A stretch of DNA of 38,855 bases from Chloroflexota bacterium (GTDB lineage Bacteria; Chloroflexota; Anaerolineae; J102), in contig JAADGC010000156.1 of assembly GCA_013152585.1 (NCBI GenBank), positions 1 to 38,855 of the forward strand, written 5' to 3'. Below the pieces are notes generated by a model, which did no database searches, was not told where the DNA came from, and saw only the letters and a program-made list of their open reading frames with translations. Below, one piece after another: positions 10,994 through 38,855 of the stretch (within the stretch, counting starts at the first letter, position 1; every line of letters begins with the position of its first letter). The position numbers were made by a program, and so were the translations under genes.

Positions 10994-11770
10994 ATGATTT
11001 CCACACTTCATCTGGGCCCAGTCGCCCTCCCCACCTACCCCTTGTTGGCCCTGCTGGGATTTTACCTGGGCCTATGGCTGGCGGCGCAAATCGCTGCCCG
11101 CCGCGGCATCAATCCCGATCATCTATACAATCTCGGCTTTTATGCCGCGATCGCGGCGGCGGTTGTGGGTCGCATCGGCCACATACTTCTTTTCTTCCCC
11201 GCTTATCGTTCCGATCCCATCAGCATCCTCTCTCCCAATCTGGCGGCATTTCAGCCCGTGTTTGCCGTGGCTGCGGTCGCCATCGTCATCCTCTTTTACC
11301 AACGGCGATACCATCTGCCCGTCGCCGAATTAGGGGATGCCCTGGCTTATGGAGCATTGCTCACGCTGGCGACGCTGGCTTTGGCCGATGGCCTCAACGG
11401 CAGACATTTTGGTATCGCCAGCACACAGCCTTGGGCTATCGAACAATGGAGCATGGCCCGACATCCGGTGCAGTACTACGAAATGCTGGGAACGTTATTG
11501 CTCATTGCCCTCTTATGGTGGCGCCAGCAGACCCTGCGTCCTGGCCAATTGGGTTTGTGGGCCGCGGCCGGCTATGCTGCCGTGCGGCTCTTTGTCGATG
11601 CCTATCGCGATCAACCGGCGCTGATCGGCGACGGCTACCGGCAGAGTCAGGTCATTGCTTTCATAGCCCTGATGATCCTACTCCTGGTCTTGTACCAGTC
11701 GCTGGCCGAACCCGATACCCCCAACGGGATCACATTTGAGTGGCAGCAGGAGGAAGACGGGAGTCGCTAA
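10994..11770 (+). CDS. Lgt-like (prolipoprotein diacylglyceryl transferase family) membrane protein
   Basis: A 258-residue polytopic membrane protein with about seven hydrophobic segments. The opening HLGPVALPTYPLLALLGFYL, the VVGRIGHILLFF helix, RHPVQYYEML and the late FVDAYRDQPALIGDGYRQSQ follow the Lgt layout. The central Lgt signature (a G-R-x-G-N-F-x-N-G type motif) is reduced here to ALADGLNGRHFG, with an Asp where the essential Arg is expected, so activity in lipoprotein maturation is doubtful. AAGG precedes the ATG by about 5 nt. Tight linkage to the TlpA-like gene suggests an exported-protein function. The stop overlaps the convergent gene's stop by 4 nt. Confidence 0.72.
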   Translation: MISTLHLGPVALPTYPLLALLGFYLGLWLAAQIAARRGINPDHLYNLGFYAAIAAAVVGRIGHILLFFPAYRSDPISILSPNLAAFQPVFAVAAVAIVILFYQRRYHLPVAELGDALAYGALLTLATLALADGLNGRHFGIASTQPWAIEQWSMARHPVQYYEMLGTLLLIALLWWRQQTLRPGQLGLWAAAGYAAVRLFVDAYRDQPALIGDGYRQSQVIAFIALMILLLVLYQSLAEPDTPNGITFEWQQEEDGSR

Positions 11771-12504
11771 CGGCGCTTCACCTTCAGCTTATCGCTGACC
11801 AACGAAGCCATGAAGCGGCGCTCGCCGGCTGTGACAAAACAAATGGTGATCGTGGGGTCGTTGGCATCTTTCTGCACATCCGTCACCACGCCGGCACCGA
11901 AGCGCTCATGTTCCACTGTCTGCCCCACGCGATAGCGCACCCGCCGCCGCGGGGACGCGGGTTTCGGCCGGGGCGCCTGTACCTGTGCGATCTGACGTAG
12001 CTCGCGATCGCGCCACGATTCGGCAAACGCTGCCAGATCATCCAATTGCTTTAACTGTTTACGCAGGGGCGCCATGCGCTTGCGCGCCGCGGCTAACTGC
12101 TCCATCAGCGCTGCCTTGCCCCGAAAACGGCCTCGGTGGGCAATACTGCGCGAAGCCGCGGCCAGCGCCTTTTCAATTGTTTTGAGTTGTTCAGCCGGAA
12201 ATGGATCAAATGGCTGTAACAAAATCAGTTGCACGCCGTTCAGGCGGCACATTTCCCGCCGTACTTCGTCGCGCGAAGCTTCTTCCAACTCTTCCCGGTC
12301 GCTTTTGCGCCGCTGGCCTTTGCCCTGCAGGCCCACAAACCGCACAGCGATGCCCACTTCGTGATACAGAGTATCCAGTTTGAGTTTTCGTCGGGTAGCG
12401 GGATTGATCAGCCAGGGGGGGGAAGCATGTCGTTGGGATGCAAAACCATCGAAAATTCGGGCCAATATTTCGTTCCAGCCCATCAAATACAAACTACTGC
12501 TCAT
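11767..12504 (-). CDS. Unknown protein with PcrA/UvrD-type C-terminal Tudor-like domain
   Basis: A 245-residue protein I cannot name. The C-terminal roughly 60 residues (YRVGQTVEHERFGAGVVTDV through FMASLVSDKLKVKRR) match the Tudor-like module at the end of PcrA/UvrD helicases, which contacts RNA polymerase. The middle (about 100-175) is a charged, probably coiled-coil region. The N-terminal part has LDTLYHEVGIAVRFVGLQG followed by DEVRREMCRLNGVQLILLQP, which recalls the strand-turn-strand and helix of small PD-(D/E)XK or VSR-type nucleases, although a clear catalytic Glu-x-Lys is missing. No helicase motifs exist, so it is not a truncated UvrD. A transcription-repair accessory is a guess. 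Confidence 0.6.
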   Translation of the reverse strand: MSSSLYLMGWNEILARIFDGFASQRHASPPWLINPATRRKLKLDTLYHEVGIAVRFVGLQGKGQRRKSDREELEEASRDEVRREMCRLNGVQLILLQPFDPFPAEQLKTIEKALAAASRSIAHRGRFRGKAALMEQLAAARKRMAPLRKQLKQLDDLAAFAESWRDRELRQIAQVQAPRPKPASPRRRVRYRVGQTVEHERFGAGVVTDVQKDANDPTITICFVTAGERRFMASLVSDKLKVKRR

Positions 12505-12589
12505 GGGGGATTAGTTTCGGACTCCGGTGGAAATAACGCCTCAGGCGTACAGGATATGATAGCACGTACGTTCGTTTTATCCAAACTGG

Positions 12590-12723
12590 CCAGGGACTTG
12601 GGGTAAGGTCGGCGGTGGCGCTGCGGCGCATCACGGATGCGCCGAGCGCTTCCTTTTTTCGTGTGTTGGCCGCATCCATGATGCGACCAACACACGCCAC
12701 CAAACGCACCCAGGGACTTGGGG
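12590..12723. repeat. 120-bp two-hairpin element between 14-bp direct repeats
   Basis: CCAGGGACTTGGGG occurs exactly at 12590-12603 and 12710-12723, a 120-bp period. Between them are a 9-bp perfect hairpin (12624-12644: CGGCGCATC, loop ACG) and a long hairpin (12660-12696: 10 bp, one mismatch, then 6 bp, loop CAT). The second direct repeat can itself pair with CCCTGG just downstream. A diverged partial copy begins at 38820. It fills the gap between two same-strand genes and codes for nothing recognisable. Confidence 0.75.
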
Positions 12724-17102: not shown

Positions 17103-17127
17103 ACAGGGGCGCCTGCTTCGAAAACAG

Positions 17128-17375
17128 ATCTCTCGCAAGGGCGCAAAGGACGCAAAGGGGAAAAGGCCGGGCGAAACTAAGCGGCCTTTACGAGAGATTT
17201 TCATCCTTATCGGCGTGCAGCCGCTCATGGTGTCTGCTTCGTCCATAAATCTCTCGCCAAGCCGCAAAGAGGCAAAAAACCTTGGCGATCCTTTGGCTGC
17301 GCTCAGGACATGCTTTGTGCGAGACTTTCGTCGTTATGTGGTATGCGAAAGCTCATGGAGAATACTTCGTCGATA
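17128..17375. repeat. Tandem pair of about 121-bp elements with CTCTCG/CGAGAG ends
   Basis: ATCTCTCG begins at 17128 and again at 17249, a 121-bp step. Each unit runs through a GCAAAG-rich arm to a closing CGAGA (17191 and 17320) and then shares a tail with TTAT, GCTCATGG and CTTCGTC. Unit 1 also holds an 8-bp hairpin AAAGGCCG/CGGCCTTT (17162-17189). A third copy, inverted, lies at 29494-29561. These units occupy most of the 327-bp gap between the Nudix gene and mreB; I see no gene in the gap. Confidence 0.7.
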
Positions 17376-29462: not shown

Positions 29463-29493
29463 GGTAATGGCATCTTGTCGGTCATGAAAAGAA

Positions 29494-29561
29494 ATCTCTC
29501 ACAAAGCATGTCCTGAGCGCAGCCGAAGGATCGCCAAGCTTTTTTATTCTTTGCGAGAGAC
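29494..29561. repeat. Inverted third copy of the CTCTCG-ended element
   Basis: Read on the minus strand, this stretch matches 17250-17326 almost base for base through CTTGGCGATCCTT, GGCTGCGCTCAGGACATGC and TTTGTG, with the same CTCTCGC opening and GAGAGAT close. It sits between the amidohydrolase and KorB-like genes, which are on the same strand. Confidence 0.7.
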
Positions 29562-38725: not shown

Positions 38726-38819
38726 AGTTGTCTCACAGATAACGCAATGCGTCATCGACGATAAGATCGTACCATGTTTGGCGGCGGTTGGCAATCTGCG
38801 TTCAGACAGCGGGTGCGTC

Positions 38820-38855
38820 CCAGGAATTTGGGCGTAAGGTTGGAGGTGGCGCTGC
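38820..38855 (+). repeat. Partial copy of the element found at 12590
   Basis: CCAGGAATTTGGGCGTAAGG and the following GGAGGTGGCGCTGC align with 12590-12624 (CCAGGGACTTGGGG, then TAAGGTCGGCGGTGGCGCTG) with about six differences, including one inserted base. The copy is cut by the window edge, so it cannot be seen whether the two hairpins follow. Confidence 0.55.

Follow-up and report, generated by a model that had tools for sequence, protein, structure and literature searches.

The two-hairpin element at position 12590 of the window, the 38,855-nucleotide stretch of Chloroflexota DNA analysed here, appears from its sequence to be a transposon relic, a worn copy of a 141-bp mini-transposon. We are highly confident that the locus is an eroded, non-autonomous MITE of the ISKra4 type (prokaryotic Mutator-like, p-MULT4) that carries REP-like cargo. 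The window element is a composite MITE of this type that is new as a combination. The window itself is one whole contig (G000:C214) of a draft genome of 3.80 Mb in 251 contigs, and the features relevant to the locus are as follows.

11767 to 12504, minus strand: gene downstream of the TGGATA-16-TATCAT promoter-like site, encoding a protein with a C-terminal PcrA/UvrD tudor domain.
12556 to 12583, minus strand: promoter-like TGGATA-16-TATCAT (consensus match), whose -35 begins at a distance of 17 bp from the element's left end.
12592 to 12600, no strand: putative left 9-bp target-site duplication, AGGGACTTG (read from the sequence; 9 bp is the duplication length of the family).
12601 to 12711, plus strand: eroded MITE copy of 111 bp (alignment with 27 full-length copies).
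12618 to 12649, plus strand: hairpin 1 including its GCGCT/AGCGC extension, a REP-like unit in reverse orientation (folding and comparison with dispersed hairpins).
12650 to 12659, plus strand: T-rich tract TTCCTTTTTT 3' of hairpin 1, terminator-like by eye only.
12660 to 12696, plus strand: hairpin 2 (37 nt), a REP-like unit in forward orientation (folding and comparison with dispersed hairpins).
12712 to 12720, no strand: putative right 9-bp target-site duplication, AGGGACTTG (read from the sequence and the duplication length of the family).
38766 to 38794, minus strand: promoter-like TTGCCA-17-TACGAT (consensus match), whose -35 begins at a distance of 16 bp from the second copy's left end.
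38811 to 38855, plus strand: start of the second copy, near-consensus with an intact left terminal repeat, ended by the contig end (sequence search).

Within the window, the 14-bp sequence CCAGGGACTTGGGG occurs at 12590-12603 and again at 12710-12723, a start-to-start distance of 120 bp, exactly as the preliminary description had it. Its two hairpins were likewise confirmed: the first (12624-12644) has a perfect 9-bp stem, CGGCGCATC-ACG-GATGCGCCG, which GCGCT/AGCGC lengthens past a bulged G, and the second (12660-12696) spans 37 nt with 10 bp, one C/A mismatch, 6 bp and a 3-nt loop. The predicted fold of the window unit reaches -82.1 kcal/mol, as compared with -50.4 +/- 3.9 for shuffled sequences (z of -8.1). 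Alignment with 27 full-length copies reveals that the ends of the window copy are worn, with GGG joined to TAAGG on the left and ACCAAA joined to CGCACCC on the right, and that most of both terminal repeats is gone. A diverged copy had also been placed at 38820. That copy is real, but it starts at 38811 and is close to consensus, and the diverged copy is instead the one at 12590; the sequence of the second copy halts at 38855 because the contig ends inside the repeat. Two further repeats were observed in the window: a 54-nt inverted pair that is 93% complementary (17274-17327 and 29492-29545), which is probably another dispersed repeat of the genome, and 41-nt direct copies that are 76% identical and lie 121 bp apart (17108-17148 and 17229-17269).

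The preliminary description had named a single full copy in the genome as an observation that would refute it. A genome search instead returned at least 40 copies of the 141-bp unit, a lower bound taken from the best 40 of 169 candidates scored. Among the retrieved loci are 62 distinct stretches of at least 60 bp and 27 full-length copies with 89-99% identity to the consensus. Several contigs, including that of the window, terminate inside a copy, which suggests that assembly breaks probably hide more copies. When copies are placed side by side, terminal inverted repeats that are worn in the window copy (GGGTGCGTCCCA...TGGGACGCACCC) bound the unit, which is laid out as GGGTGCGTCCCAGGAATTTGGGCGTAAGGTTGGAGGTGGCGCTG, hairpin 1, TTCCTTTTTT, hairpin 2 and GCCACCAAAAACATGGGACGCACCC. 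Identity between the left and right flanks of 26 full-length copies peaks only at approximately 9 bp, where it reaches 0.56 as compared with 0.28 +/- 0.034 by chance. The family has most of the features by which a MITE is defined: it is short (141 bp) and multicopy, contains no transposase gene, and has terminal inverted repeats and target duplications of fixed length (9 bp). The suggestion of an undescribed family of non-autonomous repeats was right, and the family can be assigned to MITEs of the ISKra4 type. Two copies (L028 and L051) have hairpin 2 inverted relative to the remaining element, as expected from recombination between hairpin arms.

The 14-bp direct repeat in the window is best read as a 9-bp target duplication, AGGGACTTG, with neighbouring bases that would match by chance. 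At 12592-12600 the 9-mer abuts the GGG... of the element, and at 12712-12720 it abuts ...CGCACCC; the CC and GGG beside the 9-mer match accidentally because GGG and CCC are the first and last bases of the element. The 111 bp of the element and the 9-bp duplication then add up to the 120-bp period, which leaves the earlier option of a tandem array unsupported at this locus. Residual doubt on the duplication reading comes from BLAST, which finds the left 14 bp (12590-12603) also similar to internal terminal-repeat sequence at positions 10-24. Such a pairing would suit a collapsed tandem array, in which the left CCAGGGACTTGGGG would derive by mutation from the left terminal repeat of the element and the second CCAGGGACTTGGGG would open a second unit in tandem, and a real partial tandem exists at L005 (G000:C132, at a contig end), where a copy is followed by its target duplication and then by the start of a second copy, which represents an incipient tandem. 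We nevertheless judge this explanation unlikely for the window, where exactly 9 bp, the duplication length of the family, abut the predicted termini GGG and CCC, and where an 8-bp inverted repeat in the flank, GGCCAGGG...CCCTGGCC, reappears once the element and a single 9-mer are taken out. As an explanation for the whole family, tandem arrays were rejected, with a partial second unit found at L005 only.

Assignment to ISKra4 comes from insertion sequences of relatives that carry the same termini as the MITE. In a scan for the end sequence GGGTGCGTCCC across 20 genomes of the order, relative G008 was found to carry a 1463-bp element with GGGTGCGTCCC at both ends. The transposase of this element, encoded in two frames, reaches 256 bits against the ISKra4 family model NF033572 (cut-off of 205); no matching 9-bp duplication was detected at the flanks of this insertion sequence. 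A class-wide search identified more ISKra4 elements with 8-9-bp duplications. The ISKra4 element of G321, which has a 57% identical transposase, features a 9-bp duplication and a right end, GGGTGCGTCCCAGGAATTAGG, that matches 20/21 first bases of the MITE left end. Unlike in G008 and G321, no ISKra4 transposase was found in the draft genome that contains the window, and the MITE ends lack an autonomous partner there, which indicates that the family is orphaned or that its helper is unassembled. A Thermogemmatispora match to the terminal-repeat pattern (L118) was judged to be chance, as its second end was not found. In the window's genome, other elements that start with GGGTGCGTCCC (L041, L044, L066 and L074, on contigs G000:C65, C89, C204 and C244) have different interiors, with a single GCATCACGGATGC hairpin in one and arrays of different hairpins in the others; these interiors suggest that the same GGGTGCGTCCC ends may have captured cargo repeatedly. 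G012, a relative from the same taxonomic family (loci L110-L120 and L318-L337), contains 115 GGGTGCGTCCC sites and several MITEs of 120-380 bp with GGGTGCGTCCC ends and 9-bp duplications. One type of these MITEs holds an array of hairpins, and the unit of that array, CTCTTCAGGCCTGCGGCC, is also found 71 times in the genome of the window.

The family is inserted in a fixed orientation about 16 bases upstream of promoters, as are ISKra4-type elements. Members of the ISKra4 group, like TnGBS and ISLre2, are reported to insert 13-17 bp upstream of sigma-A promoters, in an orientation that is set by the asymmetry of their two ends (PMC3942029). Our test of promoter spacing was run after the family had been assigned to ISKra4, and it scored as promoter-like any site with at least 9 of 12 consensus matches, such that sites are consensus matches and not mapped starts. 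Promoter-like sites reading away from the left end start 13-17 bp off in 33 of 50 distinct left junctions. Other 5-bp windows on the left side contain 0-2 such sites, and the right end has them at 2 of 35 junctions. With both sides pooled, 40 matches were observed as compared with a mean of 2.6 (maximum of 8) for randomly rotated flanks. For MITEs with the same ends and other interiors (G012 and its relatives), the count of promoter matches at 14-17 bp is 15/17, and in the G321 insertion sequence the end that corresponds to the MITE left end likewise has a promoter-like site at 16 bp. The flanking genes had been thought to offer no explanation for the window element, yet the minus-strand gene at 11767-12504 has a promoter-like site with the element approximately 17 bp upstream of it, an arrangement that is shared by the element's relatives. 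A GNAT acetyltransferase gene lies downstream of the TTGCCA-17-TACGAT promoter-like site next to the second copy.

Because insertion specificity can account for the proximity to promoters, a selected role is not needed. One such role would be that of an intrinsic transcription terminator module spread by selection, and TTCCTTTTTT does directly follow hairpin 1 on the plus strand. However, hairpin 1 and its T-tract were not called in a terminator scan, the tract faces away from the neighbouring promoter and has no counterpart in sister species G003, and no orientation bias relative to genes was observed in tandem contexts (7 vs 8, with rough ORF calling). We therefore consider a terminator module very unlikely.

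By sequence comparison, the two hairpins of the MITE are REP-like palindromes arranged as an inverted pair, and the same palindrome is also scattered outside the MITE. The sequence GCATCNNNGATGC is present 202 times in the window's genome; the sister species has 50 occurrences and other members of the taxonomic family have 3-31, as compared with approximately one for a reversed control. GCATCACGGATGC alone occurs 138 times in the window's genome, with many occurrences outside the MITE. These dispersed hairpins have a GCG[TC][TC] foot and stems that differ yet remain complementary, and they often form close inverted pairs; the foot reads CGTC in only some of the copies, the loop has 3 nt, and the base of the stem is other than A/T. 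Among 53 distinct hairpins, free-standing ones included, stem changes are compensatory, with a covariation of 0.144 as compared with 0.048 +/- 0.010 in shuffles and at most 0.056 in slid versions; the invariant hairpin tip is due in part to how the hairpins were found. Compensating stem changes had been proposed as a check for a structured family, and they are present, but they are equally expected of DNA palindromes and are no proof of an RNA.

A structured regulatory RNA family, with its function in the two RNA hairpins, would fit the very stable predicted fold, the compensatory changes among related hairpins and the inverted pair kept in the sister species. The earlier suggestion of such an RNA is nonetheless unsupported, as the window contains no Rfam match and DNA palindromes give the same covariation. 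Furthermore, the copies have transposon ends and target duplications, and their position fixed upstream of promoters places the hairpins outside the transcript that those promoters make. Mobile-element anatomy explains the data, and we rejected the RNA explanation as extremely improbable.

In sister species G003, the inverted pair persists in diverged relatives whose stems differ, and ISKra4-like ends are retained by at least one of them (L124), which suggests that the composite is probably older than the split between the two species. The promoter spacing of the composite was not seen for the free hairpins, which indicates that their history is separate from that of the composite. The lack of this spacing in the free hairpins also counts against a rival reading, in which a RAYT tyrosine transposase would move the whole unit as a REP dimer (BIME) and the terminal repeats would be incidental. 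The hairpins do make REP-like inverted pairs, and the genome does contain a RAYT-like gene (L221; G000:C79:422-1099), but this tyrosine transposase gene falls below the model cut-off and has no matching REP hairpin adjacent, and target duplications and terminal inverted repeats belong to DDE transposition, not to movement by a RAYT. Neither Y1 transposase gene in the genome has a GCATCACGGATGC-type hairpin alongside. Movement of the unit by a RAYT is scarcely credible on this evidence.

We favour a mechanism for the ISKra4-type MITE in which a trans-acting ISKra4 transposase would recognise the terminal repeats (GGGTGCGTCCCA...) and insert the element so that its left end lies 15-17 bp upstream of the -35 box in a promoter of the sigma-70 type, with duplication of 9 bp at the target. 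The cargo is an inverted pair of REP-like palindromes of the kind also dispersed alone in the genome. We infer that an ISKra4 transposase mobilised the element in the source strain and that the palindromes were captured by the element and not released from it. We regard the element as a selfish passenger whose presence could affect local supercoiling or the sequence upstream of the promoter, and any effect on neighbouring promoters would be of this conjectural kind.

With the ISKra4 group (p-MULT4; PMC3942029) the family has in common its terminal repeats, target duplications of 9 bp and an oriented insertion at 13-17 bp upstream of sigma-A promoters, whereas its unit is 141 bp, encodes no transposase, has hairpins in place of the gene and has no helper found in the genome. 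Like IS-derived bacterial MITEs, it is short, multicopy and non-coding, with terminal inverted repeats and target duplications as in the autonomous element; here the parent family is ISKra4, and the interior is an independently existing palindrome pair instead of an internal deletion of an IS. The palindromes resemble CGTC-tagged and untagged REPs and their dimers (PMC3733652), as they are short and extragenic, with a semi-conserved unpaired foot (GCGYY), variable but complementary stems, inverted pairs and no linked transposase. They differ from CGTC REPs (PMC3733652) in a foot that fits CGTC only partly, in a loop of 3 nt instead of 4-5 and in a stem base other than A/T. For Anabaena variabilis and Halothiobacillus neapolitanus, REP dimers have been noted within longer palindromes of unknown origin (PMC3733652); in our family, by contrast, the repeats around the pair can be recognised as ISKra4-type ends flanked by target duplications. 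The searchable literature, outside of which lie most subscription journals, yielded no account of MITEs derived from ISKra4 or of REP dimers within them. The parts are of known kinds, and the combination is new as far as our searches reach.

A broader and rather doubtful proposal is that ISKra4-type ends could act as carriers that pick up REP-like palindromes without a transposase time after time and bring them to dozens of promoters, always upstream at a set distance and in one orientation, which would spread orphan REPs and give many genes a common structural (supercoiling or insulating) module. The composite would provide a DDE-transposase route for palindromic repeats that lack their own RAYT, a point that had stayed unsettled for CGTC REPs (PMC3733652). 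The composite also shows that a very small non-autonomous derivative retains the promoter-upstream targeting of TnGBS and of ISKra4 insertion sequences. Furthermore, the same hairpin pair lies at the same spacing at dozens of promoters in one genome, which makes an effect on expression directly testable by comparing occupied and empty alleles.
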